Part shown: positions 1 through 44,317 of the stretch, in pieces | Numbering within the stretch: the first letter of the stretch is position 1 | Layout of the letters: each line of letters begins with the position of its first letter | IMG/VR virus record: IMGVR_UViG_3300035688_000016 | Coordinates: 1-44,719 of that record | Length of the DNA stretch: 44,719 nucleotides | Source: a virus | Direction: 5' to 3' (one strand) | The notes under the pieces: generated by a model | The model's database searches: none | Seen by the model: the letters and a program-made list of their open reading frames with translations, nothing else | Told to the model about the DNA's origin: nothing | Translations under genes and position numbers: made by a program

Positions 1-2
1 GC

Positions 3-31
3 TTGCAATACTGCCCCGTACGGTGTATAAT
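3..31 (+). promoter_or_regulatory. Sigma-70-type promoter for the late block
   Basis: TTGCAA (3-8) and TATAAT (26-31) are separated by exactly 17 bases, close to the bacterial sigma-70 consensus. Transcription would start near 38 and read through the folded leader into the ParB-methyltransferase and terminase genes. The same promoter is unchanged in the right repeat copy (44318-44346). Confidence 0.75.
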
Positions 32-41
32 CCCCCCAGAA

Positions 42-240
42 TATTCCCCGCGTCCAGGGCGCGGGTTCACCCCGATCCGTCGGGGAATACCCTGGTCTGA
101 CACTCCTCTCCTTGAGGGCTCCGATGGATCGGCCCATCGGAGCGGCAATCATACTTTTGGCTCCACAGGCCAATGACTGCCGAGAATAGTTCGGCTCTTT
201 TCTCCTTCTCTCTGGGGGCCGGGAGGAGACAACCGGCCCC
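42..240 (+). promoter_or_regulatory. Structured 5' leader with serial hairpins and a terminator-like end
   Basis: Between promoter and start codon lie these stems: 47-52/60-65; CCCCGA-TCCG-TCGGGG at 70-85; 118-127/134-143 (10 bp, 6-base loop); 157-161/169-173; 179-183/191-195; and 215-222/233-240 (8 bp GC stem followed by ACCTTTT). A 9-bp pairing of 42-50 with 81-89 would exclude the first two hairpins, and the loop at 54-59 can pair with 90-95. This is the layout of an attenuator or cis-acting RNA. No known riboswitch class is recognised. Confidence 0.6.
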
Positions 241-257
241 ACCTTTTCGGAGAATGA

Positions 258-1988
258 ATGTCCAAGCTGACGAAGATAAGCGACCTTACTCCTGATCCTC
301 AGAATGCCAACAAGGGCACCGAGCGTGGCCGGGGCATGATCGAGGATAGCCTGCGGCGGTTCGGCGCAGGCCGCTCAATCCTGGTTGATAAGCACAACTG
401 CGTAATCGCCGGGAACAAGACGCTCGAGGCTGCCGACGATATAGGACTTGCCGAGGCTATAATCGTGGAGACGGACGGCACGAAGCTAGTAGTAGTCAAG
501 CGTACCGACCTTGACCTGGAGGGCGACGGTGACATGGCGCGCCAGTTGGCGTACGCCGACAACCGCACGTCCGAGGTCGGGCTGGAGTGGGATTTGGATA
601 GGCTCGCCGAGGACGTGGAGGCGGGGCTGGACCTCAGGGGGTTGTTCTCGGAGTTGGAGATCGAGAACCTGCTGGCCGGGCGGAACGGCGGAAGCGCCCC
701 GAGTTCACCAGAGGAAGCACGTCGGACGCTTGCCGAGCGGTTCATAGTCCCGCCCTTCAGTGTTCTGGATGCGCGGCAGGGGTACTGGCAGGAACGGAAG
801 CGGGCATGGATAGCATTGGGGATTAGGGGGGAACTAGGACGGGGTGCTTGCCTCACCTGGACAGGTGAGGCGGTGACGGAACCGGGCTTGAATCATTATC
901 GTAAGCAAGAGAAGACTTTGGGCGCGATCCCGCCGAATGAGCGCGAGATACTCTCGCGCTCATATAAGCAAGGTTCAACCCCGCCGGGGGCACAAGACGG
1001 AGGCAGCGGGCTTTTGATTGACGGCTATCGCCGTCAATCCCGCAAGGACAACGGCCTGCTCGGAGAATCCGAGCAGGCGCGACGACACTACCGGAACAGT
1101 CCAGGAGGCTCGCCGCGTCCTGCGGCGAGCCTGAAGAACGGGCATACGGTGCGGGGGGATGGCAAGGGCAGGGAACTGAGGTTTGGTGAGGGGGGCATGG
1201 CGTTCGACGGCGGGCCTATGCCCGCCGTTGTAAATATCCCACAGACCGGCACTTCAATCTTCGACCCGGTCCTCTGCGAGATAGCCTACCGTTGGTTCTC
1301 GCCGCCGGGGGGCAAGGTGCTTGACCCCTTTGCCGGGGGCAGCGTGCGCGGCATAGTGGCCGCATTGCTTGGGCGGCAATATACGGGTATTGACCTCTCC
1401 GAAGCCCAGATAGCGGCGAATCGTGAGCAGTGGGAAGAGATCGAGGGTGATTGGCCGAACCCATCTTGGATTATCGGGGACGCAAGGGAAGTGAACGAGA
1501 TAGCCGCGGCGGAGTATGATTTCGTCTTTTCCTGTCCACCCTACTTCGACTTGGAAATATACGGCGATGATGCCGCTGACCTGAGCAATATGGCAGATTA
1601 TGGGCGCTTCCTTCTGGCATACCGGCAGATTATTGGCGACTGTGTTTCGATGCTCAAGCCGGACGCCTTCGCTTGCTTTGTGGTAGGCGACATTCGGGAC
1701 AGGGCGGGTTTCTACCGGAACTTTGTATCTGATACAATCTCCGCCTTCCAGGATGCGGGGGCAGGACTCTACAATGACGCGGTTCTGATAACCGCTGTCG
1801 GAAGCCTGCCGATCCGGGCGGGCAGGGTCTTTGTTGCAGGCCGGAAGTTGGGCAAGACTCACCAGAATGTGCTAATCTTCTATAAGGGCGACCCAAACAA
1901 GATTGAAGCGTTGCCGGAGGCATTGACCGATAGCGATTGGGAAGAGGCTCTGTGTCGGCATAACGGTCAGAGGTCGGAGGTGAGTTGA
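258..1988 (+). CDS. ParB-like nuclease domain fused to DNA methyltransferase
   Basis: The N-terminal ~140 residues form a ParB/sulfiredoxin-like domain (LTPDPQNANKG, then VIAGNKTLEAA). A segment with the phage-methylase signature PPFSVLDARQGYWQERKRAW follows. The C-terminal half has SAM-binding motif I (DPFAGG, residues ~355-360) and then catalytic motif IV (CPPYF, ~424-429). It probably modifies phage DNA on N4-cytosine or N6-adenine; the target is not readable. Start ATG 258 has GGAG five bases upstream. The linker between motifs (residues ~195-325) is encoded by DNA packed with perfect hairpins. The gene heads the late block and its stop overlaps the terminase small-subunit start. Confidence 0.85.
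   Translation: MSKLTKISDLTPDPQNANKGTERGRGMIEDSLRRFGAGRSILVDKHNCVIAGNKTLEAADDIGLAEAIIVETDGTKLVVVKRTDLDLEGDGDMARQLAYADNRTSEVGLEWDLDRLAEDVEAGLDLRGLFSELEIENLLAGRNGGSAPSSPEEARRTLAERFIVPPFSVLDARQGYWQERKRAWIALGIRGELGRGACLTWTGEAVTEPGLNHYRKQEKTLGAIPPNEREILSRSYKQGSTPPGAQDGGSGLLIDGYRRQSRKDNGLLGESEQARRHYRNSPGGSPRPAASLKNGHTVRGDGKGRELRFGEGGMAFDGGPMPAVVNIPQTGTSIFDPVLCEIAYRWFSPPGGKVLDPFAGGSVRGIVAALLGRQYTGIDLSEAQIAANREQWEEIEGDWPNPSWIIGDAREVNEIAAAEYDFVFSCPPYFDLEIYGDDAADLSNMADYGRFLLAYRQIIGDCVSMLKPDAFACFVVGDIRDRAGFYRNFVSDTISAFQDAGAGLYNDAVLITAVGSLPIRAGRVFVAGRKLGKTHQNVLIFYKGDPNKIEALPEALTDSDWEEALCRHNGQRSEVS
850..1228. repeat. Cluster of six perfect short-loop hairpins inside the methyltransferase gene
   Basis: The six inverted repeats are 850-859/862-871 (10 bp, 2-base gap); 937-948/952-963 (12 bp, 3-base loop); 1016-1025/1030-1039 (10 bp, 4); 1054-1063/1069-1078 (10 bp, 5); 1106-1116/1122-1132 (11 bp, 5); and 1207-1215/1220-1228 (9 bp, 4). 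All arms pair perfectly, yet the six sequences are unrelated. They lie in the reading frame without breaking it, in the linker between the ParB-like and methylase domains. Confidence 0.9.
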
Positions 1989-2413
1989 GTGCTATGCTCG
2001 ACGATGCTCAAACTACTGCGAGAACTACAGGAAACGGTAATCTGCGCCCGTGGAAGCCGGGGCAGTGCGGGAATCCGAACCACAAGGGCAACAACGGCAG
2101 GCCGAAGAACAGCCTTAGCCTGAAGGTGCTGCTCAAAAAGAAGCTGAACGAGGTGTGCCCTGCCGACCGGGGCCGACGCAAGTGGAAGGACGTGTTCATC
2201 GAGGCGGCAATGGCGCGGGCGCTGAAAAACCCCGCCTACGCCAAGCTCGTTTTCGAGTATGTTGACGGTAAGCCGGAGGTCATGCTAGTTGGCGACCCTA
2301 ACAGACCAGTCGAAGTCAGACACGACACAACCGACGAGCTCCTTGGCCGAATCGCTCGCCTCACTGCCAGAATCCAAGCAGAAGCGGATTCTGGAGAGCC
2401 TGACCCAGAGTGA
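1985..2413 (+). CDS. terS: Terminase small subunit candidate (DUF5681-like)
   Basis: This 142-residue protein carries the motif LRPWKPGQCGNPNHKGNNGR near residue 20, typical of the DUF5681 family that precedes large terminases in many phages. It probably recognises packaging sites on phage DNA. TTG 1985 is the chosen start because GGAGGTGA lies at 1976-1983; ATG 1994 in the same frame is an alternative. The start overlaps the methyltransferase stop, and the 3' end overlaps terL by 125 bases. The TerS role rests on family resemblance and position. Confidence 0.7.
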   Translation: MSAMLDDAQTTARTTGNGNLRPWKPGQCGNPNHKGNNGRPKNSLSLKVLLKKKLNEVCPADRGRRKWKDVFIEAAMARALKNPAYAKLVFEYVDGKPEVMLVGDPNRPVEVRHDTTDELLGRIARLTARIQAEADSGEPDPE

Positions 2414-3698
2414 GGCCGAGCGGCTGCTTTACACGTGGGGCTTCTGGGCGCGACCGAAGCAGTTACCGCCGCCGGGGGACTGGCTCGGCTGGCTGATACT
2501 GGCCGGTCGCGGCTGGGGCAAGAACCGCACGGGCGCAGAGTGGGTCATAAACCGGGCGCAGAACGGCCCCTATGAGCCGATTGCTTTGATCAGCGAGACT
2601 TCGGCTGACGTGCGGGATGTTATGGTGGAGTCGGGTGACTCCTCCATCCTGAAGATCAGCCCGCCGTGGTTCTATCCGCATTACGAGCCTGCGAAGCGGC
2701 GGCTCACCTGGCCGAATGGCGTGGTGGCGCATACCTACTCAGGCGACGAGCCGGACCAGCTCCGAGGGCCGCAGCATGGGACTGTGTTCGCCGACGAGCC
2801 AGCGAAGTGGAAATACGGGGAAGAGGCTTGGGCCAACATGGAGTTTGGCCTTCGTATCGGTTCAGACCCGCGCTGGGTGGCAACCACGACGCCGAGGCCG
2901 ATTGCCCTGATCCGGCGGCTGCTGGCGAGCAAAAACGTGGTAGTGACGCGGGGTAGCACCTATGAGAACCTTGTCAACCTGTCGCTGGTATACCGGCAGA
3001 TCATAGGCCGCTTCGAGGGGACGCGCCTGGGCCGCCAGGAGCTGCACGCCGAGGTGCTGGAGGACGTGCCGGGGGCGCTCTGGACGCGGGCGACATTGGA
3101 GGCGTGCAGGGTGACTTCCCACCCGGAACTCGTCCGTATCGTGACGGCACTTGACCCGGAGGCGTCTAGTATGGAAGATTCGGCAGAGACGGGGATCATC
3201 TGCGCCGGGCTAGGTATTGACGGCCACGGATACGTCCTTGAGGACGCGACTCTGAGGGGGACACCGCACGAATGGGGAACTGCAGGCGTTGCGTGCTATA
3301 ATAAGCACCTGTGCGACCGGCTGATCGGTGAGGTCAACAACGGCGGCGAGATGATCGAGTTCGTGATCCGCACGGTTGACCCGCATGTGAGTTACAAGGC
3401 GATCCACGCCAGCCGGGGGAAGCAGACGCGGGCCGAGCCTGTCGGATCGCTGTTTGAGCAGGGGCGGGCGCACTTAGTAGGCGTGTACTCGGAGCTAGAA
3501 GATCAGCTCTGCGGCTGGACGCCGGGCGATCCGGTATCCCCCGACAGGATGGACGCGATGGTTTGGGCTTTGACGGAACTGATGCTTGGCGAGATGACCG
3601 AACTGCCGGAGGTTCGCGGCAGCGGCGTGAGGCGCGAGGCGTTCAAGGGACTGGCCCCGACGGATCGGGGCTGGCAGGATCGCAGAAGCGTGGTATAA
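2289..3698 (+). CDS. terL: Terminase large subunit (packaging ATPase-nuclease)
   Basis: The packaging motor subunit has an N-terminal adenine-binding region (YTWGFWARPKQLPPPGDW), Walker A GRGWGKN at residues 73-79, Walker B VFADE ending at D169-E170, and a C-terminal RNase H-like nuclease (ALDPE, GEVNNGG, SPDRMDA). The length of 469 residues is normal. Walker A has Asn79 where Ser or Thr is usual. The start is TTG 2289, eight bases after GGAGGT, inside terS; TTG 2343 is an alternative. The gene ends with a 16-base palindrome followed by an extended -10 promoter for the portal operon. Confidence 0.92.
   Translation: MATLTDQSKSDTTQPTSSLAESLASLPESKQKRILESLTQSEAERLLYTWGFWARPKQLPPPGDWLGWLILAGRGWGKNRTGAEWVINRAQNGPYEPIALISETSADVRDVMVESGDSSILKISPPWFYPHYEPAKRRLTWPNGVVAHTYSGDEPDQLRGPQHGTVFADEPAKWKYGEEAWANMEFGLRIGSDPRWVATTTPRPIALIRRLLASKNVVVTRGSTYENLVNLSLVYRQIIGRFEGTRLGRQELHAEVLEDVPGALWTRATLEACRVTSHPELVRIVTALDPEASSMEDSAETGIICAGLGIDGHGYVLEDATLRGTPHEWGTAGVACYNKHLCDRLIGEVNNGGEMIEFVIRTVDPHVSYKAIHASRGKQTRAEPVGSLFEQGRAHLVGVYSELEDQLCGWTPGDPVSPDRMDAMVWALTELMLGEMTELPEVRGSGVRREAFKGLAPTDRGWQDRRSVV
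3655..3670. repeat. 16-base hairpin palindrome CCCCGACGGATCGGGG, copy in terL
   Basis: The sequence is a 6-bp stem with a 4-base loop. It occurs again at 32813-32828 inside dnaB, and in reverse complement at 70-85 and 44385-44400. Here it abuts the -35 box of the portal promoter, so it could also act as an operator or insulator hairpin. Shorter relatives with TCCCGA/TCGGGA arms lie at 13752-13767, 32324-32342 and 34882-34898. Confidence 0.85.
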
Positions 3699-3699
3699 T
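3671..3699 (+). promoter_or_regulatory. Promoter for the portal/head operon (extended -10)
   Basis: CTGGCA (3671-3676), a 17-base spacer and TATAAT (3694-3699), with an upstream TGG giving an extended -10. It overlaps the terL stop codon and sits 37 bases before the portal start. The perfect -10 together with the extension makes activity plausible despite a 4/6 -35 box. Confidence 0.6.
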
Positions 3700-3735
3700 G
3701 CAAGAGGCAAGACTGCAAACGGGGGCACTCCAAGA

Positions 3736-5127
3736 ATGAGGATTCTCGGCAAGCATATCCCCTTCACGGCGGCAGGGAAGCCGACGCCACAACCCGACAT
3801 GCGTGAGCAGGTCCGCGCCGTCAGCCTCTTCGATCTCCAATCGCGCCGCTACTCCAACGCCTTCTCCGAACTCGACCCCGTTCTGAGCAGAAAAGGGTAC
3901 GAGGTCTATACCCGCGATATGATGGCGGACGATCAGGTCTGCCGCTGCGTCCACCTGCTGAAGCTCGGCGTCGTGGTCGGCGGCTGGTCGGTCGCCCCGG
4001 CGGTAGGCGAGGGCGAGGAGGGCTACCAGGAGGCGCAGGACATAGCCGATTTCGTGGAGCATTGCATTGACCAAATGCAGGGGAGCCTCGAGCGCGTGTG
4101 TATGAACATAGCCGACGCGGTTGTTCCTGGCTTCAGTGTCGCCGAGATCAACTGGCTTCTCTTCGAGGGCGGCCCTTACGACGGCATGGTAGGCATAGAC
4201 TCGATCAAGCCGAAGCCCGCCGCGACCTTCACGTTTGATTTAGACGAGTTCGGCACGGTGAAACAGTTGCTCCAGACGATAGGGACGACACGCGAGGAGC
4301 CGGTCGCGCTCGACAAGGTTCTGCTCTATACCTACGACCAGCAGGCGACGGGGTTGCCGCAGGGCATGTCGGCGCTCCGGGCCGCGCACAGGCATTGGTG
4401 GCGGAAGAACAGCCTGATGCAATGGGAAATGGTCGCGGCGGAGAAGCACGCCTGCCCGACGCCGTGGGGGACTTACCCGAAGGGCACGCCGAAGCAGTTG
4501 CAGGACGATCTGCTGAAGGCACTGGAATCATTTCAGACGGATACCGCCGTGATCACGATGGAGGGGGCCACCATCACCCTCCTTGAGCCGAAGTCCTCTG
4601 TGATGGCGCCCTACGAGGACGGGATCGCCTCGGCGAACATGGCGATAGCGCGGGCGATCCTCGGCCAGACGCTCGCCGTAGAGGAGAGCACGTCCGGTAC
4701 GGGCAGCTACGCGCAGGCGAAGGTTCATGCCGGGGTACTGGCAATGTTCCTGGGCGGCATCCGGCGCGAGATAGCCGAGGAGGTATTGAAGGAACAACTA
4801 GTCAAGCGCCTGGTCAACTATAACTTTACTACTGACCTATATCCGAGTATAATCCTATCGGAGCCGGACGAGCGGGATCTGGAGAGCCTGGCGCGGGTGT
4901 TCGACGTTTTGCTCAAGGGCGGTGTAGTTGACCCGAAGGAGCCTATGATACGCGAGGAGTTCGGACTGCCGCCTATGCCGCAGGAGTTGGCGGAGGAGCA
5001 GGCGGCGAAGGTTGAGGCCGCTGAGATAGCGGCAGAGAAGGCGAAGGAAGCGGCAGCGCAGCAACCGCCGGTAAGTGTGGGGCCGGAGACGCCGCTTGGA
5101 CAGACGCAGGGGGTAGACGGGGCATGA
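3736..5127 (+). CDS. Portal protein, DUF935 / Mu gp29-like
   Basis: This 463-residue protein reads as a Mu gp29-type (DUF935) portal, the dodecameric ring through which DNA enters the capsid. Recognisable stretches are MMADDQVCRCVHLLKLGV, PQGMSALRAAHRHWWRKN and ILGQTLAVEESTSGTGSYAQ; the last is characteristic of the family. The C-terminus is Ala/Glu/Pro-rich and probably flexible. A weak GGGG precedes ATG 3736. The stop overlaps the minor head gene as ATGA, so the two are translationally coupled. Confidence 0.85.
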   Translation: MRILGKHIPFTAAGKPTPQPDMREQVRAVSLFDLQSRRYSNAFSELDPVLSRKGYEVYTRDMMADDQVCRCVHLLKLGVVVGGWSVAPAVGEGEEGYQEAQDIADFVEHCIDQMQGSLERVCMNIADAVVPGFSVAEINWLLFEGGPYDGMVGIDSIKPKPAATFTFDLDEFGTVKQLLQTIGTTREEPVALDKVLLYTYDQQATGLPQGMSALRAAHRHWWRKNSLMQWEMVAAEKHACPTPWGTYPKGTPKQLQDDLLKALESFQTDTAVITMEGATITLLEPKSSVMAPYEDGIASANMAIARAILGQTLAVEESTSGTGSYAQAKVHAGVLAMFLGGIRREIAEEVLKEQLVKRLVNYNFTTDLYPSIILSEPDERDLESLARVFDVLLKGGVVDPKEPMIREEFGLPPMPQELAEEQAAKVEAAEIAAEKAKEAAAQQPPVSVGPETPLGQTQGVDGA

Positions 5128-6005
5128 TAACCCGCGCCGAAGTAGTCCGATTCCGCCGACGCCCGTCTAATCCGGTGAAGGTGTACGCCGACACAACGAC
5201 CTTCGCGGCCAAGCCCGGTATAGCCCGGAAGGTCGCTACGAAGCGGGCGTGGCAGACGCGCCGAGGCAAACTCTGGCAGACGAGGATGGCTGAGCAACAG
5301 GTATTGGCGAAGGAGACGCAGCGGGGGCATATCGGCAAGGCGCTCGACGATCACTTCCTGACGCTGCACGAGCACCTGAAGTCAACGGTATTGCACCACG
5401 CCGAGCGGATGTCCGACGGCAAGATCAGTGCCGAGGAGTTCGAGAAGCGGGTGCGGACCGACCTGCGGAGCGCCTACGACAAGGCGGCGCAACTCGGGAA
5501 GGTCAAGGCCAGGGGCGAATACGTGCAGCTCTCGCAGCGGGATCTCGCCGCCGTGAACCGCCAGCGTTACGAGGATAACAAGTTTTTGAAGGGCTTCATT
5601 GAGGATATACACGGCAAGTATCAGCAGTTGGAGCCTGAGAAGGCGGCTGCCCGAGTCCAGTGGCGGGCGCAGCAGTACGCCGACGCGCTCCAGGGGACAA
5701 TGAACGAGTCCTTCGTCGCCCATATGCCGGAGGAGACGCTTTACGACTGGGTATTGACGGAGGGCGCAGATCACTGCGAGGATTGTCTTGCGGCGGAGGC
5801 AGGCAGTCCCTATAAGCGGGCGACCCTGCCATTCACGCCCGGAGACGGGAGTTGCGCCTGTGTCGAGAATTGCCTTTGTTCCTTGGTCGCCCGCACGGAG
5901 CGGACGGTGCAACGCGAGACGGCCACTGGCGTCAAGAGTGTGACGGTCAAGGGCGAGGTGTCGGGCGCGCCGGTAGTGGCGCCAGCTAGTCCGTCCGGTA
6001 CGTGA
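5124..6005 (+). CDS. Minor head protein, Mu gpF-like (capsid morphogenesis)
   Basis: The C-terminal part (WVLTEGADHCEDCLAAEAGS, then TPGDGSCACVENCLC) matches the Cys-containing signature of Mu F-like minor head proteins, which attach near the portal vertex and can be injected with the DNA. The N-terminal ~60 residues are basic and the middle (residues ~85-200) is helical. The length of 293 residues fits the family. The gene follows the portal with a 4-base overlap, the usual order in Mu-type head modules. A long imperfect hairpin lies just after its stop. Confidence 0.82.
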   Translation: MITRAEVVRFRRRPSNPVKVYADTTTFAAKPGIARKVATKRAWQTRRGKLWQTRMAEQQVLAKETQRGHIGKALDDHFLTLHEHLKSTVLHHAERMSDGKISAEEFEKRVRTDLRSAYDKAAQLGKVKARGEYVQLSQRDLAAVNRQRYEDNKFLKGFIEDIHGKYQQLEPEKAAARVQWRAQQYADALQGTMNESFVAHMPEETLYDWVLTEGADHCEDCLAAEAGSPYKRATLPFTPGDGSCACVENCLCSLVARTERTVQRETATGVKSVTVKGEVSGAPVVAPASPSGT

Positions 6006-6389
6006 TATAACACTTAACCAGAGGATACCTCCGGGCGATCCTGAAGATAGTTCAGGAAAATCGTGAGGTATCTTAAGGATTACCGACAATGCAGAAGAAG
6101 GCGCGGGAAGTGGTCGGAACACAACGGGGGACAAAGGGCCTTGATTGACTATCAAGGTAGCGGCAAGGATACCCAGTCAGGCGTTTAGGCCGAGGCGTCA
6201 AACACGGCCTGTTTCTATCGGGTTGACCTGCCCTGACCGCTTCCCGTAGCCGTTCTGCTTCAGACAGAGGGATGACGTTATCTCCCCCTGTAGGCGTAAG
6301 GCTTCCGAAAAAACGTGAAGTAATCTCAGATATTGTGTTAAGATAGTTCAGAGATAGCCCAAACGACGCCGCTGGGCGGGGAGAATGCG
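6006..6389. other. 384-base gene-poor gap: hairpin and 12-base direct repeats
   Basis: No convincing gene was seen. Directly after the minor head gene, 6022-6074 folds into a nearly continuous hairpin (6022-6031 with 6065-6074, 6036-6039 with 6060-6063, 6040-6045 with 6051-6056). The 12-mer AAGATAGTTCAG occurs at 6044-6055 and again at 6340-6351, bracketing ~284 bases. A 7-bp hairpin CCTTGAT/ATCAAGG lies near 6139-6157. An insertion with target duplication, or a structured RNA, could explain this otherwise unusual space in a tight late operon. Confidence 0.6.
6022..6074 (+). terminator. Long imperfect hairpin after the minor head gene
   Basis: Three stacked helices (10, 4 and 6 bp) with small bulges close on a GATAG loop. 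There is no clear U-tract after it, so it may be an RNA processing or pausing element rather than a true intrinsic terminator. Confidence 0.45.
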
Positions 6390-6695
6390 TTGAAGAGAAC
6401 GGGCGAGTGCAAGCGGTGCGGGATATGCTGCCGGATTGCACTACGGGCGACGGCGCAAGCGGGCCGGGATAACGCGCTCGTCGAGTGGGCGTGTGTGAGG
6501 GAGCTAGAGATGGAGTCCGGGGCCGACGGCCTCACCTCCATCTACGCGATCCAGCCGTGCCCCCGTCTGGCCGAGGGCGAGGACGGGATGGCCATGTGCA
6601 CGATTTACGACTACCGCCCGCAGCTCTGCCGGGAGTATCCGGGTGACGCCGGCATGATTACTGCGGGCTGCGGGTTTAGGTTCGAGGAGGTATAG
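6390..6695 (+). CDS. YkgJ-like CxxCxxCC metal-binding protein
   Basis: The 101-residue protein begins with CKRCGICCR and continues with CPRLAEGEDG, CTIYDYRPQLCREYP and a late Cys. This is the YkgJ pattern (cluster- or zinc-chelating Cys-rich domain). The family's biochemical role is poorly defined. The start is TTG 6390 with GGGGAG seven bases upstream. It sits between the minor head gene and the prohead protease, three bases before the latter, so it is expressed with head genes. A role in head maturation is only a guess. Confidence 0.8.
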   Translation: MKRTGECKRCGICCRIALRATAQAGRDNALVEWACVRELEMESGADGLTSIYAIQPCPRLAEGEDGMAMCTIYDYRPQLCREYPGDAGMITAGCGFRFEEV

Positions 6696-6698
6696 GAC

Positions 6699-8000
6699 AT
6701 GCCATATACCGTTTCGCAACTTCAGGCAGACGAGCGGTTCAAGGGAATGCCGAAGCACGCGCTTGAGATATTCGCGGCGGCGTTCAACGCGGCGAGTGCG
6801 GCGGGCAACCCGGAGGCTCGCTGCTTCCAGATCGCCTGGGCCGCCGTGAAGGAGAAGTATCATAGGACGGCAGAGGGCGCATGGGTAGAGTTCGCTGTCG
6901 AGATGGGCAGGTACGCCGAAGCGACCAACGGCGATGACTACTACAAGAGAGATGATGGGAGGTGGGTTCTTTTGACTGACGACGTGGAGCGCGAGGCCAA
7001 GCTATTCGAGGCCGGGGACTATCCCGACAAGGGCGTGAGCATCACCGAGGAAGAGTTGGACGCGATGGTCGCGGCTCACCCGGCGGAGGGAGTGCCGATC
7101 AAGGTTGAGCACTCGGAGACGCCGTTTGACGGTGCGCTCGGTACTGTGCAGGCTATCTACCGCCGGGGCAAAGAACTATTTGGGAAGATTAGGTTCCCTA
7201 GGTCGGCGTGGGACTTCCTGGAGGCGGCAGGCGCGAAGGCACTATCCTGTGGGGTCAAGCGCGACAAGACAGGGATAACTGAGGTTTCGATAGTCTGCAA
7301 CCCGCGAGTAGCGGACGCCCGGATATTCGCGGATACGGCAGAGGCGGTAAGGTTTTCGGCGGATGTTGAATGGGACGGCCATCCGGCGAAAGAAGAGACA
7401 TCCGCCGTCCCGAAATCTAGCACATTGCCCCCGAAGGAAGGGGCAGAGGAGGTGAAACCCATGCCGGAAGACGGCAACAGGGAAATCACGTTTGAGGCCG
7501 CGCTGGAGGTAGTCCGCAAGGCTGCCGAGGCGGACGATGCCCGCGCGCAGGTGGTCAAGTCCGAACTGGAGCGCACGGCTTACTTCAAGCAAGTCGAGGA
7601 GAGCGTGCAGCGGGTAGCCGCCCGTGAGACGGAACTTGACATGCACTTCCGCCGGACCAACGCGGAGGGCGTGCTAGGGCAGTTCAAACGCGCAGGTAAG
7701 ATCGTGCCTGTGTCGGAGAAGCTGGCGAGGGCGCTACTCTCGGAGCTGCCGCTCGTAAGTACGTTCGCCGAGCCAGCGCATGTCATCAAGTTCACGGACA
7801 AGGACGGGAACGAGCAGACGGCCCACTTCGCCGAGGTGTTCAAGATGTTCCTGGAGGCGAGTCCGCCCTGCGTGAGCTATGCGGAGATGGTCCGCAACGA
7901 GAAGGAAGCCGAACTCGGAGGCGCGACCGCCGAGCAAGTCAAGTTCGCGGAGGCGCACGGCGTCTCGAAGGAAGACCTGGCGAAGTACGCCGGAAGGTAG
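6699..8000 (+). CDS. ChaB domain fused to Mu gpI-like prohead protease/scaffold
   Basis: Residues 1-66 match the ChaB domain (MPKHALEIFAAAFNAASAAG, AWAAVKEKYHR). Residues ~105-220 resemble phage I-like (Mu gpI) prohead proteases (GDYPDKGVSITEEELDAMV, IKVEHSE, GALGTVQAIYRRGKELFGKI, KALSCGVKRD). From about residue 250 the protein becomes a charged helical scaffold. It should drive assembly and proteolytic maturation of the capsid. A strong internal start at 7461 would make the scaffold portion separately. The ChaB fusion is unusual to me for this family. Confidence 0.75.
   Translation: MPYTVSQLQADERFKGMPKHALEIFAAAFNAASAAGNPEARCFQIAWAAVKEKYHRTAEGAWVEFAVEMGRYAEATNGDDYYKRDDGRWVLLTDDVEREAKLFEAGDYPDKGVSITEEELDAMVAAHPAEGVPIKVEHSETPFDGALGTVQAIYRRGKELFGKIRFPRSAWDFLEAAGAKALSCGVKRDKTGITEVSIVCNPRVADARIFADTAEAVRFSADVEWDGHPAKEETSAVPKSSTLPPKEGAEEVKPMPEDGNREITFEAALEVVRKAAEADDARAQVVKSELERTAYFKQVEESVQRVAARETELDMHFRRTNAEGVLGQFKRAGKIVPVSEKLARALLSELPLVSTFAEPAHVIKFTDKDGNEQTAHFAEVFKMFLEASPPCVSYAEMVRNEKEAELGGATAEQVKFAEAHGVSKEDLAKYAGR
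7461..8000 (+). CDS. Nested scaffolding protein from an internal in-frame start
   Basis: Codon 255 of the protease gene is ATG 7461, preceded by GAGGAGGTGA with GGAGG at 7448-7452, an optimal 8-base spacing and as strong as any gene start in this window. The product would be 179 residues, acidic and helical, covering only the scaffold part. Nested scaffolds in the protease 3' end are known from lambda (Nu3 inside C) and Mu (Z inside I). The same arrangement is inferred here; expression is not proven. Confidence 0.7.
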   Translation: MPEDGNREITFEAALEVVRKAAEADDARAQVVKSELERTAYFKQVEESVQRVAARETELDMHFRRTNAEGVLGQFKRAGKIVPVSEKLARALLSELPLVSTFAEPAHVIKFTDKDGNEQTAHFAEVFKMFLEASPPCVSYAEMVRNEKEAELGGATAEQVKFAEAHGVSKEDLAKYAGR

Positions 8001-8012
8001 GAGGTGATTTGA

Positions 8013-8474
8013 ATGGCCTATGGCACTACGACCGCTATCCGTGAGACCGGCGTGGCCGATGGTAGGTTTGTCGCCTGTCTTGCCAAAGCCGCGCAGGTCT
8101 TCAAAAAGGGCGACATTGTAGTCATTGACGCCACCGACGGCCTAGCCTACAAAGCGTATGCCGACGCTGGCTATGCCAACGGCGACATCTTTGCCGGGAT
8201 AGCGAACGACTCGAAGATAGCCGCCGCAGGCGATACTGACACGATTGTAGTGGATACGGAGGGCATCCATGAGTTGACTATCGCTGCGACGAACCAGGCC
8301 ACGGCAGTAGGGAGGCCGGTCTACCACGAGATCGGGGAGGGTACGGCGCAAACCGTCACGTTGACGGCGCCTGCGCCCTACCTGCGGATCGGCATTGTGA
8401 CCGGGCTAGTTAGCACGACTAAGGTACTGGTAGACATCGAGGGGTTCCTGAATATCGCCGCAGGCGCCGACTAG
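8013..8474 (+). CDS. Capsid decoration-like protein, first tandem copy
   Basis: This 153-residue beta-rich protein (KKGDIVVIDATDG, DIFAGIANDSK, VYHEIGEG, LVSTTKVLVDIEG) has the look of small phage head-decoration/cement proteins of the DUF2190 kind. It is followed by a paralogue 13 bases downstream and then by the major capsid gene, which supports a capsid-surface role. GGAGGTGATT precedes ATG 8013. An internal stretch (8079-8157) is identical at base level to the second copy, while the rest has diverged. Confidence 0.65.
   Translation: MAYGTTTAIRETGVADGRFVACLAKAAQVFKKGDIVVIDATDGLAYKAYADAGYANGDIFAGIANDSKIAAAGDTDTIVVDTEGIHELTIAATNQATAVGRPVYHEIGEGTAQTVTLTAPAPYLRIGIVTGLVSTTKVLVDIEGFLNIAAGAD
8079..8157 (+). 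repeat. 79-base identical tract, first copy (second at 8554-8632)
   Basis: The 79 bases match exactly at a 475-base offset, although the flanking parts of the two paralogous genes differ at many positions. A recent gene conversion or unequal exchange limited to this segment is the simplest reading. Confidence 0.9.
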
Positions 8475-8487
8475 GAGGTGATGACTG

Positions 8488-8946
8488 ATGGCATACTCAA
8501 CTACCACAACTATCCGTGAGACCGGCGTGCAGGACGGCAAGTACATAGCCCTCCTTGCCAAAGCCGCGCAGGTCTTCAAAAAGGGCGACATTGTAGTCAT
8601 TGACGCCACCGACGGCCTAGCCTACAAAGCGTGGGCGCACGCCACGACTGCCGCTGGCGATATATTCGCCGGCGTAGCGATGGAGTCGAAGACGGCGGCA
8701 GCCGGCGATGCCGACACGATCAAGGTGAACACTAAGGGCGTCCATGAATTCGACATCGCCACGACCTCCCAGGCGGCAGGTCTGGGTAGGCCGGTCTACC
8801 ACGAGGACGGAACGAGCGGCAATGCTCAACTCGTAGTTATCGCCGCGCCGGCAACGCACTACCTGCGCGTCGGCGTGATCGTCGGCCTGGTTAGTACGAC
8901 AAAGGTTCTCGTCAAGATCGAGGGCCTCAAGAACGTTTCTCCATAA
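8488..8946 (+). CDS. Capsid decoration-like protein, second tandem copy
   Basis: This is a 152-residue paralogue of the preceding protein with the same motif order (RETGVQDGKYIALLAKAAQ, KKGDIVVIDATDG, GRPVYHEDG, GLVSTTKVLVKIEG). It starts at ATG 8488 after AGGAGGTGATGACTG and ends 23 bases before the major capsid gene. The two copies may form mixed trimers on the capsid, or one may serve another vertex or protein. Function is inferred from position and fold appearance only. Confidence 0.65.
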   Translation: MAYSTTTTIRETGVQDGKYIALLAKAAQVFKKGDIVVIDATDGLAYKAWAHATTAAGDIFAGVAMESKTAAAGDADTIKVNTKGVHEFDIATTSQAAGLGRPVYHEDGTSGNAQLVVIAAPATHYLRVGVIVGLVSTTKVLVKIEGLKNVSP

Positions 8947-8969
8947 CATACGAAAGGTGGTGATTTACT

Positions 8970-9908
8970 GTGCCTATCACTCAGAGTGATATACCGAACT
9001 TGATGAACCCAGCGATCAGGGCGATCTTCTTCGAGGCGTACCAGGCGGCAATCGCAGCCGCTGATTGGACGCAGATATGCGACATCGTACCGTCCACGAC
9101 CAAGACTGAGACTTATGCCTGGCTGGGTGCGCTGCCCTCCATGCGGCTCTTTGACGCAGAGCGACTTCCGAAGGGTATCAGCGAATACGCCTATACGCTG
9201 ACCAACAAGAAGTACGAGGTATCTATCGCGGTCGACCGCGATGCCTATGAGGACGACCAGTTCGGCCAGATCAAGTTGCGTATTCAAGGGCTGGCACGCG
9301 AGGCTGCTCGCTATAAGGAAGCGCTTGTCATGGGCGCGCTTGAGAAGGGAATATCGTCTACGCCAGCGACGGACGGCTATGCTTACGATGGGGCGTACAT
9401 GTTCGGCACCAGCCGAACCATCGGGGCATCAGGTACGATAGACAACTACGACACAGGTGTCTTGACTGCCGCGAATCTCCAGACCGAGATCATCAAGCTG
9501 ATGAACTTCTGTGACGATACCGGCAAGTCTATGGGACTCCTGCCGGATACGCTGGTTGTGTCGCCCACAAACATGTTCGTCGCTCGGGAGCTACTGAACT
9601 CGGTTTACTTCCCGGACTTACCTGCGGCGACCTATCCGGCGGTCCCGAAGGTGAACGTCCTTCAGGGCATGTTGAAGTTAATCGTGACTCCGTACATCTC
9701 GACAACTCCGGCCCGGTGGTTCCTCCTGGATACCAAGCACGTGCCGAAGCCGTTGATCCTGCAGATGCGGGAGGACGTGACGTTTGATGCGCTTGAGGCC
9801 AACTCGGAAACTGGCTTCATGCGCGATCAATACGTCTATGGCGTGAAGATGCGGTGTGTCGTCGGCTACGGACTGCCGCAGACAGCCATAGCCGTAAGTG
9901 GCAGTTAG
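8970..9908 (+). CDS. Major capsid protein, Mu gpT-like
   Basis: The 312-residue protein fits the HK97-fold Mu T family: N-terminal PAIRAIFFEAYQ, the P-loop-like TYAWLGALPSMRLF, central YEVSIAVDRDAYEDDQ, and the C-terminal FDALEANSETGFMRDQYVYG. It would form the icosahedral shell. Start is GTG 8970 with AGGTGGTGA upstream. Its position after the protease/scaffold and decoration genes is the expected order. No propeptide is evident, consistent with a separate scaffold. Confidence 0.9.
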   Translation: MPITQSDIPNLMNPAIRAIFFEAYQAAIAAADWTQICDIVPSTTKTETYAWLGALPSMRLFDAERLPKGISEYAYTLTNKKYEVSIAVDRDAYEDDQFGQIKLRIQGLAREAARYKEALVMGALEKGISSTPATDGYAYDGAYMFGTSRTIGASGTIDNYDTGVLTAANLQTEIIKLMNFCDDTGKSMGLLPDTLVVSPTNMFVARELLNSVYFPDLPAATYPAVPKVNVLQGMLKLIVTPYISTTPARWFLLDTKHVPKPLILQMREDVTFDALEANSETGFMRDQYVYGVKMRCVVGYGLPQTAIAVSGS

Positions 9909-9991
9909 TACTGGGTGTGGCTGGCATTGGGCCGTCACACGTACGGGCGCTGGAGGTTTCTAGGGCCTCCTTGCGCCTGGGAGGTAATACT

Positions 9992-10258
9992 ATGCCTTAC
10001 TTAGTGAGGTCCGCACGCGGCCCGGGCTGTTCTGGAGTCAAGCTACGGGACGGCACGGTGATCGGGCAGGAGTGGAAAGAGGTCGAGTTCCTGTGTGAGT
10101 TGGACACGACGGACTCGCTGATCGAGTGGAAAGAGATCGAGCCGGAACTCGAACCCGCGCCGCCGGTTGAGGCGGCTGAGATACCTGTGATTGTCGAGGC
10201 GACCGTACCGGGGATAGAGAGGCCGTCCCGGAAGCGGCGGAGGAAGGTGAGGCCGTGA
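9992..10258 (+). CDS. Small head-region protein of unknown function
   Basis: This 88-residue protein starts at ATG 9992 behind GGGAGGTAA, the only good site in this interval. The N-terminal half is compact (KLRDGTVIGQEWKEVEFLCE). The C-terminal half is Pro/Glu/Val-rich and ends in a basic RKRRRKVRP tail. Its stop overlaps the GTG of the DUF2961 gene (GTGA), so both are probably co-translated. It might be a linker or chaperone for that protein. A GC-rich imperfect hairpin lies between the capsid gene and this start (~9949-9980). Confidence 0.65.
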   Translation: MPYLVRSARGPGCSGVKLRDGTVIGQEWKEVEFLCELDTTDSLIEWKEIEPELEPAPPVEAAEIPVIVEATVPGIERPSRKRRRKVRP

Positions 10259-11892
10259 GTTACACAGGTACGAGCGAGCTGATCTTCTCCGACCTTACTG
10301 ACGGGGTAGTAGACGACGAGTCGGCACACGCCTCCGATCCCTGCAGCGTCGGCCGTATGGATAAGGCGACCTTGCAGGTGACGGCGACCAAGACACTCTC
10401 ACCGGGCGACCTTACCGCGCTACTTGAGGCGAGCGAGGACGGCACGAACTGGGCGACCGTCGGGGCGATACTCTTCACTGCGGACGGCTCCTCGACAGTC
10501 CACATAGACTCGACGCATACCTGGCTACGTTGTAAGTTGACCGCAGCGGCGACCACGAACGGCACGAACTACTGGACGGTCACGGCGGTACTGACGGCAC
10601 TGTACCATCTCGGGCACGAGTTCGAGGAGGCCGAGTCTCAGGCAGGGAACCCGCTAGAGTTTCCCTTCCCCAGTCCGCAGTATCCCGGCAAGATGCTGAC
10701 TGCGAAGAAGGAGGAGGACGACATTATAGACCATACTGCCGATCCTCCGACGCTTGTGGTGCTGAACCTCGGTGCGGGACAACAGGGCGTAATCCGCCGC
10801 ATCCAGATCGTGTTCCAAACCTTGAACAACAAAGCCACTACCCTCCAGGCGGTGTGGGCTGCCCTACGGCTGGTAGTTACGGTAGATGGTGAGGTTGACC
10901 CTGCTGTAGACGTTGCACTGGGTGAATTGGCGGCACTTGGGCTTGTGGCGAATGACCAAACCTTGCAGGTGTGGCAGACACCGATGTTCAGTGTGAACCT
11001 GAACACCTGGGGCGCCCAGGACGGTCAGTGCCAGATTGACCTTAGTTGGCCTATGCCATTCTCCAACGGCATTAAAGTGGAGATTAGGCCGTCACCAGGT
11101 TTTGAGTATTGGACTGCCCCTAGTACACACAACTGCCATACCTGGGTTTACGTCTCCTATCAGAACGTGCTGCCGCCGTGTTGGAATCGAAACTACAGGT
11201 TCCGCGCAAGCAGATTCCAGCACGAGTTCGGCGTCTTTGAATGTGAGGGCACTGCCACCACTGACCCCGCTAACCACAAACACCTTATAGGGACGAGCAG
11301 CTACTTCGTCGTGCAGTTGAGCCCGACAGATATGGTTGCCTACCAATACCGTGCTGTTTGCTCCGAGATTGACCACATAGAGAGTGAAACGTCGCTGTAC
11401 ACCGTTGACAACATGGAGGTTCTAACCGGCGCAGTCATATATGGGATCAAGGCTGGAACGCCAGAAGCTCCCAGTATTGAGACGATATTCGACAGGCCAG
11501 CGGGGAAACGCGGAGTCTACGTAGGTAGCCTTGCCTCGTTTAACCAGGGTGAGATCGGCGAAATCACGGACAACTTCTTTGAATACAACGTCCAGTTTCA
11601 TGTTGACAGGGAACCCAACGCGAGTTGGGAAGCCAGCAGCACTGAGGACTATTTTGGCAGTGGGTTCTACTTTGGGGGTAGCACACACGCTAAACCGATA
11701 CTTGGCCTAGAGAGCGGCCAGCCGTGCGTAGACCACACGAGCAAGTGCTATACGGCTTACCGCATCCACCGTGACGATCCGATTCCTTACTCTGACGGCA
11801 TTTATAGCCTTTGGCAGTGGGGCGCGGCAGGTCAGAATCTCTACAATCCCATTGATGTCACATGGGTTCATCTCTACTACGAGGAAGTCTAA
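10255..11892 (+). CDS. Head-module protein with DUF2961/GH172-like domain
   Basis: Residues 1-~115 form a beta-rich domain (LEASEDGTNWATVG) like those on phage fibres. From ~160 onward the protein follows DUF2961: VIRRIQIVFQ, LRLVVTVDGEVDPAVDVALGEL, WPMPFSNGIKVEI, KRGVYVGSL, STEDYFGSGFYF, YRIHRDDPIPY. DUF2961 defines glycoside hydrolase family 172 (fructofuranose and arabinofuranose-active enzymes with a double jelly-roll trimer). Glu443 (FFEYN) and Glu464 (STEDYF) are 21 residues apart, the spacing I recall for the GH172 catalytic pair. It may be a capsid-surface glycan-cleaving fibre. It sits just after the major capsid and overlaps both neighbours. Confidence 0.8.
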   Translation: MSYTGTSELIFSDLTDGVVDDESAHASDPCSVGRMDKATLQVTATKTLSPGDLTALLEASEDGTNWATVGAILFTADGSSTVHIDSTHTWLRCKLTAAATTNGTNYWTVTAVLTALYHLGHEFEEAESQAGNPLEFPFPSPQYPGKMLTAKKEEDDIIDHTADPPTLVVLNLGAGQQGVIRRIQIVFQTLNNKATTLQAVWAALRLVVTVDGEVDPAVDVALGELAALGLVANDQTLQVWQTPMFSVNLNTWGAQDGQCQIDLSWPMPFSNGIKVEIRPSPGFEYWTAPSTHNCHTWVYVSYQNVLPPCWNRNYRFRASRFQHEFGVFECEGTATTDPANHKHLIGTSSYFVVQLSPTDMVAYQYRAVCSEIDHIESETSLYTVDNMEVLTGAVIYGIKAGTPEAPSIETIFDRPAGKRGVYVGSLASFNQGEIGEITDNFFEYNVQFHVDREPNASWEASSTEDYFGSGFYFGGSTHAKPILGLESGQPCVDHTSKCYTAYRIHRDDPIPYSDGIYSLWQWGAAGQNLYNPIDVTWVHLYYEEV

Positions 11893-12395
11893 TGCCCGCA
11901 GTTCTGACAGTAGAAGACGACGACATCAAGGCTTACCTGCTCATCCTGGTTGACACGTACGACGCAGGGATAGCCGCAATCCTGGCCGCCTGGGATACGG
12001 CAATAGAGGTCATGATCCAGGCAGGCTACCTGAATGATGCGGCACTGACGGACATCCTGACGCTCGGCAAGCTCCTCGTGATCTGCGGGCAGGTCAAGAA
12101 CTGCCTGCCAGCGACCGCGACCGGCAGCGGCGCAAAGACCTCGATCAAGATGGGTAGTTACGCAGAGAGCACGGAGAGCGCGACGAGTACCGGCGGCACT
12201 ACGACCGGGGTATCGGGTGACGGGCTGATAGAACAGGGCTGGGGCATACTGCGGCCCTACATGACCGCCGAGGCCATCGCGCAGGGCTTCGAGCAGATTA
12301 TCTCGTCAACACAGACCTACGCCCGCGAGTTCCGGCTAACGCATAGGGACTCCGAGGGCGGGGTGACTGTCCAGGGCACGATGGAGGGCTGGTAG
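11892..12395 (+). CDS. Head-tail connector candidate, unknown family
   Basis: This 167-residue protein starts at ATG 11892 inside the previous TAA (TAATG). The first ~75 residues are helical (DIKAYLLILVDTYDAGIAAI), the middle is Ser/Thr/Gly-rich, and the end is GFEQIISSTQTYAREFRLTH. It occupies the slot where head completion/adaptor genes normally lie, after capsid genes and before head-closure genes. No family signature is recognised, so the role is positional inference. Confidence 0.55.
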   Translation: MPAVLTVEDDDIKAYLLILVDTYDAGIAAILAAWDTAIEVMIQAGYLNDAALTDILTLGKLLVICGQVKNCLPATATGSGAKTSIKMGSYAESTESATSTGGTTTGVSGDGLIEQGWGILRPYMTAEAIAQGFEQIISSTQTYAREFRLTHRDSEGGVTVQGTMEGW

Positions 12396-12396: not shown

Positions 12397-12777
12397 TTGG
12401 CGAGCATTGACCTCAATCATCTGCCACATACCGTGGCGATCTGGCGGAAGTACGAAGTCCCCGCGTACGACGGTACGGGGCGGATTCAGACGCCCTCTTA
12501 TGTGTGCGGTGAAGTCTCCGAACCCTGCTGGATGGAGCCACTGTCGGCTACGGAGAAGGCAGGACTCGGGTACGCCTTTGACGCGAACAGTTACCGTGCC
12601 TGGTTCGCCGTAAGCGCGAAACTGAAGGCCACAACTGGCGATGTTCTGATTTACGACAACGTAGCCTACCAGGTAGACGACTGGACGGTGTATGATAGCG
12701 GCCCCACAGCGGCGCAGCACGTCGAAGCGATGTCCATGAGGCTGCCGGCGATCCCGGCGGGCGTCACGTTCCCATGA
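12397..12777 (+). CDS. Head-closure / head-tail joining protein candidate
   Basis: The 126-residue beta-rich protein (LPHTVAIWRKYEVPAYDGTG, YDNVAYQVDDWTVYDSG) resembles the small barrel head-tail joining proteins in layout: an opening strand with a tyrosine/tryptophan patch and a late VDDW-type strand. TTG 12397 is eight bases after GGAGGG. Its place, between an adaptor candidate and tail-completion candidates, agrees. Confidence 0.6.
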   Translation: MASIDLNHLPHTVAIWRKYEVPAYDGTGRIQTPSYVCGEVSEPCWMEPLSATEKAGLGYAFDANSYRAWFAVSAKLKATTGDVLIYDNVAYQVDDWTVYDSGPTAAQHVEAMSMRLPAIPAGVTFP

Positions 12778-12784: not shown

Positions 12785-13264
12785 ATGACTGCACCGAGTT
12801 TCGACTATACGGATGCAATAAAGGCGCTCTGCACGCAGTTCGCGGCAATGACGGGACTCTCGGAGGGGCCACCGAACAAGGTGGAGGAGTCGGCCATGAC
12901 CTTCCCCGTCTTCGACGCGGCCTACGAGCTGCCGTACGGCGTAGTGGAGACAGTCGGGGCGATGGAGATCGAGCAGGGCGGCGACCTGGCGATCCTCCAG
13001 GTTCGGAACCGACTGCGCCTGCGGGTCTGGTATATCCGTAGTTGCGAACCCCATGCCGTGGTCGGGGACAGTCTGCGGGCGGACGGCGAGCTGATAGCGC
13101 AGACGTTCTGGGAGTCAACTTTGAGTAATATGGTCGAGGCCGTCTGGCCGGTGAGTATTGATTGGAGTTACGAGGCCGAGTTCAACGCGGCGGCTAAGAT
13201 AGCTGGCTGGCCTGCGGCGGCTGTAGCAGTCACGATGGACGTTGTAGCCGTGGAGAGGCGGTAG
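12785..13264 (+). CDS. Tail completion / neck protein candidate
   Basis: This 159-residue protein (FDYTDAIKALCTQFAAMTGL, LAILQVRNRLRLRVWYIRS, TMDVVAVERR) has the alternating alpha-beta pattern of tail-terminator or neck proteins but no diagnostic motif. It begins seven bases after the head-closure candidate and ends one base before the next gene, so it is part of the same translation chain. Confidence 0.55.
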   Translation: MTAPSFDYTDAIKALCTQFAAMTGLSEGPPNKVEESAMTFPVFDAAYELPYGVVETVGAMEIEQGGDLAILQVRNRLRLRVWYIRSCEPHAVVGDSLRADGELIAQTFWESTLSNMVEAVWPVSIDWSYEAEFNAAAKIAGWPAAAVAVTMDVVAVERR

Positions 13265-13265: not shown

Positions 13266-13760
13266 ATGGCCGGGGTAGTATTCACGAGTAACGCAGGGGC
13301 ACTGGCTGCACGACTCAGGCGCAAGGCCAGCTCGTTTATACCACTCCAGGTCGGTGCGATGCGGGCCGCGACAAACGACGTTTTGCACGAGGCGCGGCGG
13401 CTCTCCGGTAGGACCTATGCCACGACCGCGAAACTGCGGGCGATGGGGCATCCGTACGCACGGGCCGGTAGAGGCGGCGGGTTTGGCAGGCGGTTGCGCG
13501 GAGGGGCAGCATTGCCAGCACCGCCGTTCGTGCTGAACCTGCAGACCGGGAGGCTGCACGGCCTCTGGCGTACGCTGGTTCGGCGCGGCATGGGCGTCGT
13601 CACGGGAACGGTCTACAATCTGGCCGCTTACTCGCGGTTCATGCGGGGGACGCGGAAGATGATTGAGCGGCCTATCTTACAGGAGGCGCTCCGCCGCCAT
13701 AAGCAACGGATGCTCCGACGCTTCCGGGGTGGCTTGCAGAAATCGTTATCATCCCGATAG
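13266..13760 (+). CDS. HK97 gp10-like tail completion candidate
   Basis: The 164-residue, very basic protein has an N-terminal helix after VVFTSNAGALAARLRRKASS, a central PPFVLNLQTGRLHGLWR and a C-terminal Arg/Lys-rich helix (EALRRHKQRMLRRFRGGLQ). Size, charge and gene order recall HK97 gp10-type minor tail/neck proteins, but similarity is weak. Its last codons overlap a perfect TCCCGAT/ATCGGGA hairpin at 13752-13767, which ends just before the next gene's ribosome binding site. Confidence 0.5.
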   Translation: MAGVVFTSNAGALAARLRRKASSFIPLQVGAMRAATNDVLHEARRLSGRTYATTAKLRAMGHPYARAGRGGGFGRRLRGGAALPAPPFVLNLQTGRLHGLWRTLVRRGMGVVTGTVYNLAAYSRFMRGTRKMIERPILQEALRRHKQRMLRRFRGGLQKSLSSR

Positions 13761-29646: not shown

Positions 29647-29912
29647 GGGGCTTGCTCCTCGACGATTGCGCGCCAGGCGTTGTAAGAGACACAGTAGGCA
29701 CAGTCGCAACCCGGATCGGGAGTCTTACCTGGGACAGCCCCAATCACCTTCTCCGCCGCCTCCCGTCTCCGCCGCTCGTAGCGCAGTTGGGCGAGTAGCG
29801 CGGGAACGTCCTCGCGGGCATGGGCAATGAGATATGCGGTCCAGGGTCCCTTTGTCGCCGCGTCAGCCCGCGCCTGGATTGCGGCCAGTTCCTCTTCACT
29901 CAACAGTTTCAA
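29643..29912 (-). CDS. Ead/Ea22-like early protein
   Basis: The 89-residue protein opens with LLSEEELAAIQARADAATKG followed by PW, the hallmark start of Ead/Ea22-like phage early proteins of unknown role. A CDCAYC pair sits near the end. TTG 29912 is chosen because GGAG lies seven bases upstream, inside the end of the DUF5131 gene. Its stop overlaps the next gene as GTGA. Confidence 0.55.
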   Translation of the reverse strand: MKLLSEEELAAIQARADAATKGPWTAYLIAHAREDVPALLAQLRYERRRREAAEKVIGAVPGKTPDPGCDCAYCVSYNAWRAIVEEQAP

Positions 29913-30708
29913 TTCCTTGCTCCTTTCCGCCGACCGGGTCTTGCCAATCCGTGACACTGCGGAACGGCTCGCCACTCCGCGGATCTGTCACCTGCTGGAT
30001 AATCGGCTCCAGGTTGGACTTCAGCCAGACACCGACCCCCGCTTCGGGCGCGAACCAGATCAGGCGTTCCACAAGCGCGGGTCGCGTTCCCCCGACCGTC
30101 TGCCCAACGGTCCTGCCATTTCGCGTCAGTGCGCCTACTACCATCCACTCGATAGTAGCCAATGCCTTCGGAGTCCCAATCCCCTGCGCCACATCCCTAG
30201 TCAACAGCGGCTCGACCGACAACCATGTGTGCCAGCCCATCCGGTTGAGGCGGCTCAACGAATTCACTGCCGGTCGGCCAGATTCATAATCACAGATTGA
30301 GGCCCCAACCCAGACGTTCGGCAGAACCGCACGCTCGCCGAAGAACTCCTCCGCTGCCCCGTACTGCTTCGTCAGGAAGAGGAATTGGTGCCGGGGACAT
30401 TCTTGCACCCGGCACCAGATTTGCTCTCGCCGTCCCCAGTGGATCTTAGGGTCCAAGAAATCAGACGTGAATTGCACCAGAAAACGTGCTGGTGTGGTCA
30501 TGCCTAGGGGCGCGCGGAGTACCCTCTCGTAGTCGGTCTTCAGTGTCGGTTCCTCCGGCCACCCGAACCGCCTGCACATAGCCAGCGCCCAGCAGTCAGC
30601 ACGGCAGGGACAGGCGGTGTTGCTGCACCCAGTCCACAGATTCCAGGCGTAACCGATCCGGCCTCCGCCGTGCGCGTAGTCAATTTCGGTTCGTGCTAGT
30701 CTGGTCAT
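29896..30708 (-). CDS. DUF5131 family protein (phage Gp37/Gp68-like)
   Basis: The 270-residue protein has the family's opening YAWNLWTGCSNTACPCRADC (residues ~20-40) with clustered cysteines, then FVQFTSDFLDP, FLFLTKQYGAAEEF, NVWVGASICDYES, LSVEPLL and EWMVVGA. These match DUF5131, whose Cys-rich start and barrel-like strands recall radical-SAM enzymes, although function is unproven. ATG 30708 overlaps the upstream stop. Confidence 0.8.
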   Translation of the reverse strand: MTRLARTEIDYAHGGGRIGYAWNLWTGCSNTACPCRADCWALAMCRRFGWPEEPTLKTDYERVLRAPLGMTTPARFLVQFTSDFLDPKIHWGRREQIWCRVQECPRHQFLFLTKQYGAAEEFFGERAVLPNVWVGASICDYESGRPAVNSLSRLNRMGWHTWLSVEPLLTRDVAQGIGTPKALATIEWMVVGALTRNGRTVGQTVGGTRPALVERLIWFAPEAGVGVWLKSNLEPIIQQVTDPRSGEPFRSVTDWQDPVGGKEQGIETVE

Positions 30709-30935
30709 TTGGCCTCCTGTTCCACCGCGAGCTCGCCTTCGTCCAGAAATCCCGCCTCCTCCAACTCTCCGACACGCAGATACGCCCAGGTGCAGAGGGC
30801 GCGCACCTGTTCTGGCCGTAGATAGAAGTGCTGGTAATTGGACCCGTCGAAGCACACAACAAGTGTCAGTTCGTGATCTGCCCTTCCTGAGATGCCAAAG
30901 TCGTATAGATCCGTTGTGATCGTCAAGCCTTTCAT
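30705..30935 (-). CDS. Small early protein of unknown function
   Basis: The 76-residue acidic protein (GLTITTDLYDFGISGRADHE, YLRPEQVRALCTWAYLRVGE) starts at ATG 30935 behind AAGGAG. It is coupled to the DUF5131 gene by an ATGA overlap. The strand-helix pattern suggests a small alpha-beta domain. No family assigned. Confidence 0.5.
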   Translation of the reverse strand: MKGLTITTDLYDFGISGRADHELTLVVCFDGSNYQHFYLRPEQVRALCTWAYLRVGELEEAGFLDEGELAVEQEAK

Positions 30936-44315: not shown

Positions 44316-44317
44316 GC

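Follow-up and report, generated by a model that had tools for sequence, protein, structure and literature searches.

The window, by which we mean the whole stretch of DNA analysed (44,719 nucleotides), is an entire IMG/VR virus record of 44 kb carrying plus-strand terminal direct repeats (positions 1–402, with a second copy at 44316–44719) that are 96% identical, suggesting that little of the genome is missing from the record. The genome carries a Mu gpT-like capsid gene, a Mu-like portal and a tailed-phage terminase. Its genes are arranged in the order methylase, terminase, portal, a 293-aa gene, a ChaB-domain gene, two cement-like genes and the capsid gene, followed by an 88-aa open reading frame (ORF), a DUF2961 gene, connector-type genes, the tape measure and tail genes, with the replication and recombination genes on the opposite strand. 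The features mapped around the DUF2961 gene all lie on the plus strand: two tandem head decoration or cement-like genes (8013–8474 and 8488–8946; phrog_1731, Phage_cement_2 and phrog_122), which are paralogous and 75% identical over 300 nt; the Mu gpT-like major capsid gene (8970–9908; PF10124, 3.7e-53; phrog_371, 3e-57); the 88-aa ORF (9992–10258), recognized in the sequence; the DUF2961 gene itself (10255–11892); and four connector-type genes (11862–12395, 12397–12777, 12785–13264 and 13266–13760), the last assigned by a match to the phrog_5 neck/tail completion family (E = 8e-4) and the other three by position only. Elsewhere in the genome, the gene at 6699–8000 encodes a head-module protein of 433 aa that carries a ChaB domain (4e-12) at its N terminus, a DUF5131 gene (2.6e-23) lies in the replication region (29896–30855), and a 15-bp tandem array of the TTACTTCCTTACTTA type, with about five copies, occupies 33612–33708.

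The terminase (2289–3698) has 80 related IMG/VR loci (L113–L192; 42–55% identity) that share TerL and, in part, the methylase. None of them carries the window capsid gene or the DUF2961 gene, and a portal match, weak at that (E between 1e-8 and 1e-12), is confined to three of them, indicating that packaging gene and head module do not travel together. These relatives span phages of Gordonia, Vibrio, Microbacterium and Caulobacter, and the host is not fixed thereby. The contig of the nearest portal relative (L002, 60% identity) stops about one gene past the portal.

The DUF2961 ORF, confirmed in the sequence, encodes 545 amino acids from a GTG start. Within the sequence GTGA, this start codon shares nucleotides with the stop codon of the 88-aa ORF, and a AGGAAGGTGAGG-like ribosome site lies upstream. 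An earlier note on this DNA had placed the gene between the capsid and connector genes, and this is indeed its position, with the 88-aa ORF intervening on the capsid side. Given this position and the coupling to the preceding gene, the product is quite probably a component of the virion; a hydropathy check found no hydrophobic signal-like N-terminus. Cellular GH172 fragments do occur in IMG/VR (L005/G004) and in fecal ‘Bacteriophage sp.' records (MT835583, MT836379 and MT835628), which raises the question of whether a cellular GH172 gene has been fused to a phage contig during assembly. We consider this extremely improbable: the gene sits in an unbroken same-strand block between the capsid and connector genes, the ORFs on both sides overlap it, the record has its 96%-identical terminal repeats, and no close cellular protein was found (best pairwise phmmer E = 0.003 among the loci compared).

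The 545-aa protein matched the Pfam family PF11175 (DUF2961) with 63.3 bits (E = 3.1e-17), well above the curated gathering threshold of 27 and far above chance, and in a search of the record the alignment covers essentially the whole profile (positions 2–234 of 235). Typical full-length cellular DUF2961 members score 213–336 bits. A PHROGs search returned no family for the gene product and phmmer of the protein against PDB sequences matched no GH172 entry, which together mark it as a distant DUF2961 member that only a profile can reach. All the DUF2961/GH172 motifs quoted in the earlier note are present, and homology to GH172 is close to certain. No close relatives were found in the collections searched: viral_contigs and genome_contigs returned none, and the C-terminal part had no relative in the phage collection at E values up to 10. 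A single plasmid match (E = 8) was dismissed as unconvincing. DNA scans for GTEDYFG/STEDYFG recovered one cellular fragment and one false match (L010, a chance TEDYFG in repeat proteins).

The earlier note had also singled out two glutamates, Glu443 and Glu464, for a 21-residue spacing. They do lie 21 residues apart, and in each family member that we compared they align with the two catalytic residues. Glu443 (11581–11583, plus strand) aligns with the acid/base Glu270 of αFFase1 and is invariant in 21 of 21 cellular members and in all of a second set; Glu464-Asp465 (11644–11649, plus strand; Glu464 at 11644–11646) aligns with the nucleophile Glu291 and Asp292. The only other E-x20-E pair in the protein, 388/409, falls outside the conserved motifs. 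Alignment with 21 diverse Bacillota members gave an overall identity to cellular GH172 of about 16–22%, with 9 of the 14 invariant columns retained, including Glu443, Asp451 and Glu464. Asp465 and Tyr466, conserved in 20 of those 21 members, are also retained, and the family-invariant positions Pro221, Gly418, Pro456 and Gly462 are lost.

We mapped the active site of αFFase1 onto the window protein using our own alignments and published numbering (PMC8605356). Glu270, Asn272, Glu291 and Asp292 correspond to the identical residues Glu443, Asn445, Glu464 and Asp465, Thr288 becomes Ser461, and aromatic character is retained where Trp298 becomes Phe471 and Tyr187′ becomes Trp297. Trp267, part of the −1 and +1 subsites in αFFase1, is replaced by Asn440, with Phe441 adjacent; the family FH motif reads FE (Glu329), and the calcium ligand Asp33′ is seemingly absent. 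Mutants of DgGH172c at Glu233 and Glu254 support the same catalytic glutamates (PMC10115798). In αFFase1 the Y187F mutant is still active and W298A is partly active (PMC8605356), so activity is compatible with the changes at these two sites. On balance, the retained residues make it rather more probable than not that the window protein is catalytic. The known substrates of cellular GH172 enzymes are α-D-fructofuranosyl and D-arabinofuranosyl linkages, including those of pilin oligosaccharides (PMC8605356, PMC10115798).

An AlphaFold2 (AF2) model of the protein was computed with a 22-row alignment built of cellular GH172 homologues, so that the fold prediction and the sequence match are not independent results. 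The model (pTM 0.62, mean pLDDT 55) predicts the double jelly-roll whose absence the earlier note had named as grounds for discarding the assignment, spanning residues ~164–545. Jelly-roll 1 comprises about residues 164–334 (10744–11256, plus strand), including Trp297, and jelly-roll 2 about residues 407–545 (11473–11889, plus strand), with both Glu443 and Glu464 inside it; the cores are mostly modelled at pLDDT 60–88. Residues 1–163 and 338–406 fall below pLDDT 50, the latter being an insertion between the jelly-rolls (11266–11472, plus strand). Comparison with PDB structures, for which Foldseek was also run, placed four GH172 entries on top (Z 25.3–26.6 over 288–297 residues), followed by double-jelly-roll capsid proteins at Z 9–12 (STIV 11.8, PRD1 about 11.5, FLiP 10.9).

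The N-terminal domain that the earlier note described as fibre-like corresponds to residues 1–118 (10255–10608, plus strand). Its likeness to fibres is weaker than the other features: no sequence match was found for these residues in the phages searched and the predicted structure is a generic, low-confidence β-sandwich. Modelled alone from single sequence, the N-terminal 132 residues gave seven strands (pLDDT 57, pTM 0.51), possibly a small β-sandwich, and many weak generic jelly-roll and β-sandwich neighbours, none standing above the rest.

The opposite end of the protein is truncated relative to the cellular family. Only three residues follow the last conserved tyrosine (the Tyr542 column), compared with at least 20 in 19 of 19 cellular proteins. 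GH172 enzymes assemble as trimers and as multiples of the trimer (PMC10115798, PMC8812541), and in 4kq7 and 7v1v it is the C-terminal helices that join two trimers (PMC8812541). A protein lacking this tail would be expected to stop at the single trimer.

A second viral protein ends in the same way. Halorubrum tailed virus 29 (HRTV-29, NC_062762), an isolated haloarchaeal tailed virus, encodes gp60 (YP_010358434.1), a protein of 367 aa annotated ‘DUF2961' in GenBank, with a Pfam E value of 2.4e-15, the arrangement E267-x20-E288-D289, and four residues after the last conserved tyrosine. Its gene lies between those of gp58 (SPP1 gp17-like tail completion) and gp59 on one side and gp61 and the gp62 tail tube on the other. 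The statement in the earlier note that no phage example had been described thus needs amending, as gp60 carries the annotation and canonical GH172 genes are also present in clostridial phage contigs. We found no paper that discusses gp60, no mention of a jelly-roll, glycoside hydrolase or virion mass spectrometry in the HRTV-29 paper, and no viral case in publications linking GH172 or DUF2961 to phages. The best match in BFVD, UPI001E6B8B39, is also 367 aa long and, judging by this equal length only, is probably gp60.

In a tree of 22 proteins and 306 columns, the window protein and gp60 group against all others with support of 98.3/97. An alternative tree in which gp60 joins the cellular GH172 proteins of haloarchaea fits only marginally less well (AU p = 0.066). 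Both branches are long, at about two substitutions per site each, so attraction is possible; the equally long branch of L213 does not join them. The similarity of jelly-roll 2 between the two proteins exceeds all but about 1 in 2000 shuffles. An apparent shared N-terminal motif (M-S/T-Y-x-G-T) was rejected (shuffle p = 0.08–0.38). We tentatively propose, as a minority possibility, that a DUF2961 lineage specific to viruses is common to bacterial and archaeal tailed viruses, and that in it a cellular sugar-cutting double-jelly-roll enzyme became a trimeric part of an HK97-type virion, losing the trimer-joining tail and keeping the catalytic site. If true, this would be a present-day transition from enzyme to virion protein, like the one by which double-jelly-roll capsids have been proposed to arise.

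The clostridial phage contigs in IMG/VR (L220, L221 and L223) have a different history. Their GH172 is canonical (342 aa, Pfam 1.3e-78), lies between distal-tail and tail-associated genes, and branches with a Lachnospiraceae gene in the tree, evidently a separate, recent capture. In L220 (IMGVR_UViG_3300031760_000911, positions 1–10573) there are two copies of the tape-measure and distal-tail genes; the first copy is followed by a nitroreductase-like gene and the second by the canonical GH172. In L055, the nearest cellular locus with GH172, a nitroreductase relative likewise lies downstream. A pattern census of viral_contigs, which needs exact conserved peptides, returned these three contigs and cellular fragments only, suggesting that DUF2961 is rare there. 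The fecal ‘Bacteriophage sp.' records named above, probably together with MT838830, were set aside because they look cellular, having TonB/SusD-like or metabolic neighbours and no phage genes that we recognized. The clostridial arrangement, with GH172 between tail genes and a nitroreductase-like gene nearby, is cargo-like, and DUF2961 is mostly a family of metabolic enzymes (PMC8812541). One could thus imagine the window protein as a moron enzyme, expressed late and remaining outside the virion, that acts within the cell, during lysis or on glycans that have been released. We regard this as unlikely: the window protein is highly diverged, has gained an N-terminal domain and has no signal-like N-terminus, and its gene is stop–start coupled to a small gene within the head block.

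The explanation that we favour overall, with roughly even confidence, is a virion-attached trimeric protein, derived from GH172, that acts on furanosyl glycans at the host surface. The ancestor of its main domain would be a cellular double-jelly-roll furanosidase of GH172 (DUF2961). The protein would most likely be a trimer, like GH172 enzymes and the capsomers of double-jelly-roll viruses, given that the active site of GH172 forms at the protomer interface, and assembly would end at one trimer for want of the C-terminal tail. The N-terminal domain may anchor the protein on the head or neck, and during attachment furanosyl glycans, such as D-arabinofuranosyl or fructofuranosyl residues, would be cut or at least bound. 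A purely structural role, in which the GH172 fold is reused in a protein of the neck, a spike or a decoration of the head that possibly binds glycans and cleaves no sugar, is a less probable but serious alternative. It accords with the position of the gene in the head–connector block, with the family positions that have changed (Trp267 to Asn440, FH to FE, the Asp33′ ligand), with a fold class like that of double-jelly-roll capsid proteins, and with the trimeric jelly-roll head cement known in other phages, the KHP40 cement (7dou) being among the structural matches. Catalytic residues should disappear from a protein that has lost its activity, however, and their retention in both the window protein and gp60 (the glutamates and the adjacent Asp), despite about 80% divergence, argues against this reading and for the glycan-active virion protein.

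According to a proposal by Krupovic, Makarova and Koonin (2022), the ancestors of double-jelly-roll capsids were DUF2961-like enzymes; their survey reported DUF2961 in no virus and no viral genes next to those for DUF2961 (PMC8812541). The presence of diverged DUF2961 proteins in the structural gene blocks of two tailed viruses that are unrelated to each other shows that viruses recruit this family, probably into the particle, and thereby qualifies the published absence. The step from enzyme to virion protein becomes testable in an isolated virus, HRTV-29, and the window protein, if active, would add a virion-borne furanosidase to the tools that phages use at the cell surface. The GH172/DUF2961 family and one viral example annotated in GenBank were already known; a phage DUF2961 in a head block with an added N-terminal domain is new, as are its likely kinship with a haloarchaeal virus protein and the loss of the C-terminal tail, which the two proteins share.

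Compared with the GH172 enzymes αFFase1 of Bifidobacterium dentium (7v1v), the D-arabinofuranosidases 8ic8 and 8ah3, and BACUNI_00161 (4kq7), the window protein shares the Pfam family, the predicted double jelly-roll, E-x20-E-D, the invariant Asp and aromatic positions near the active site. It differs in its identity of about 20%, its added N-terminal domain and inter-jelly-roll insertion, its missing C-terminal tail, the changes at Trp267 and the FH motif, and the location of its gene in a phage head–connector block. HRTV-29 gp60 is likewise a DUF2961 protein encoded in the connector/tail block of a tailed virus, with E-x20-E-D and an end right past the last strand, but it is shorter, lacks such a 118-residue N-terminal domain and the YRxH motif, and comes from a virus of a haloarchaeal host; its gene lies between tail-completion and tail-tube genes, whereas the window gene is near the capsid gene. 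The clostridial phage GH172 resembles the window protein in being encoded by a DUF2961 gene inside a phage structural module, but is canonical and close to Lachnospiraceae GH172, belongs to the tail module and retains the C-terminal tail (20 residues in L220). Double-jelly-roll capsid proteins share the predicted fold class (Z 9–12) and are trimers; they have no sequence match to the window protein, whose phage already has a capsid protein of the HK97-fold type (Mu gpT).
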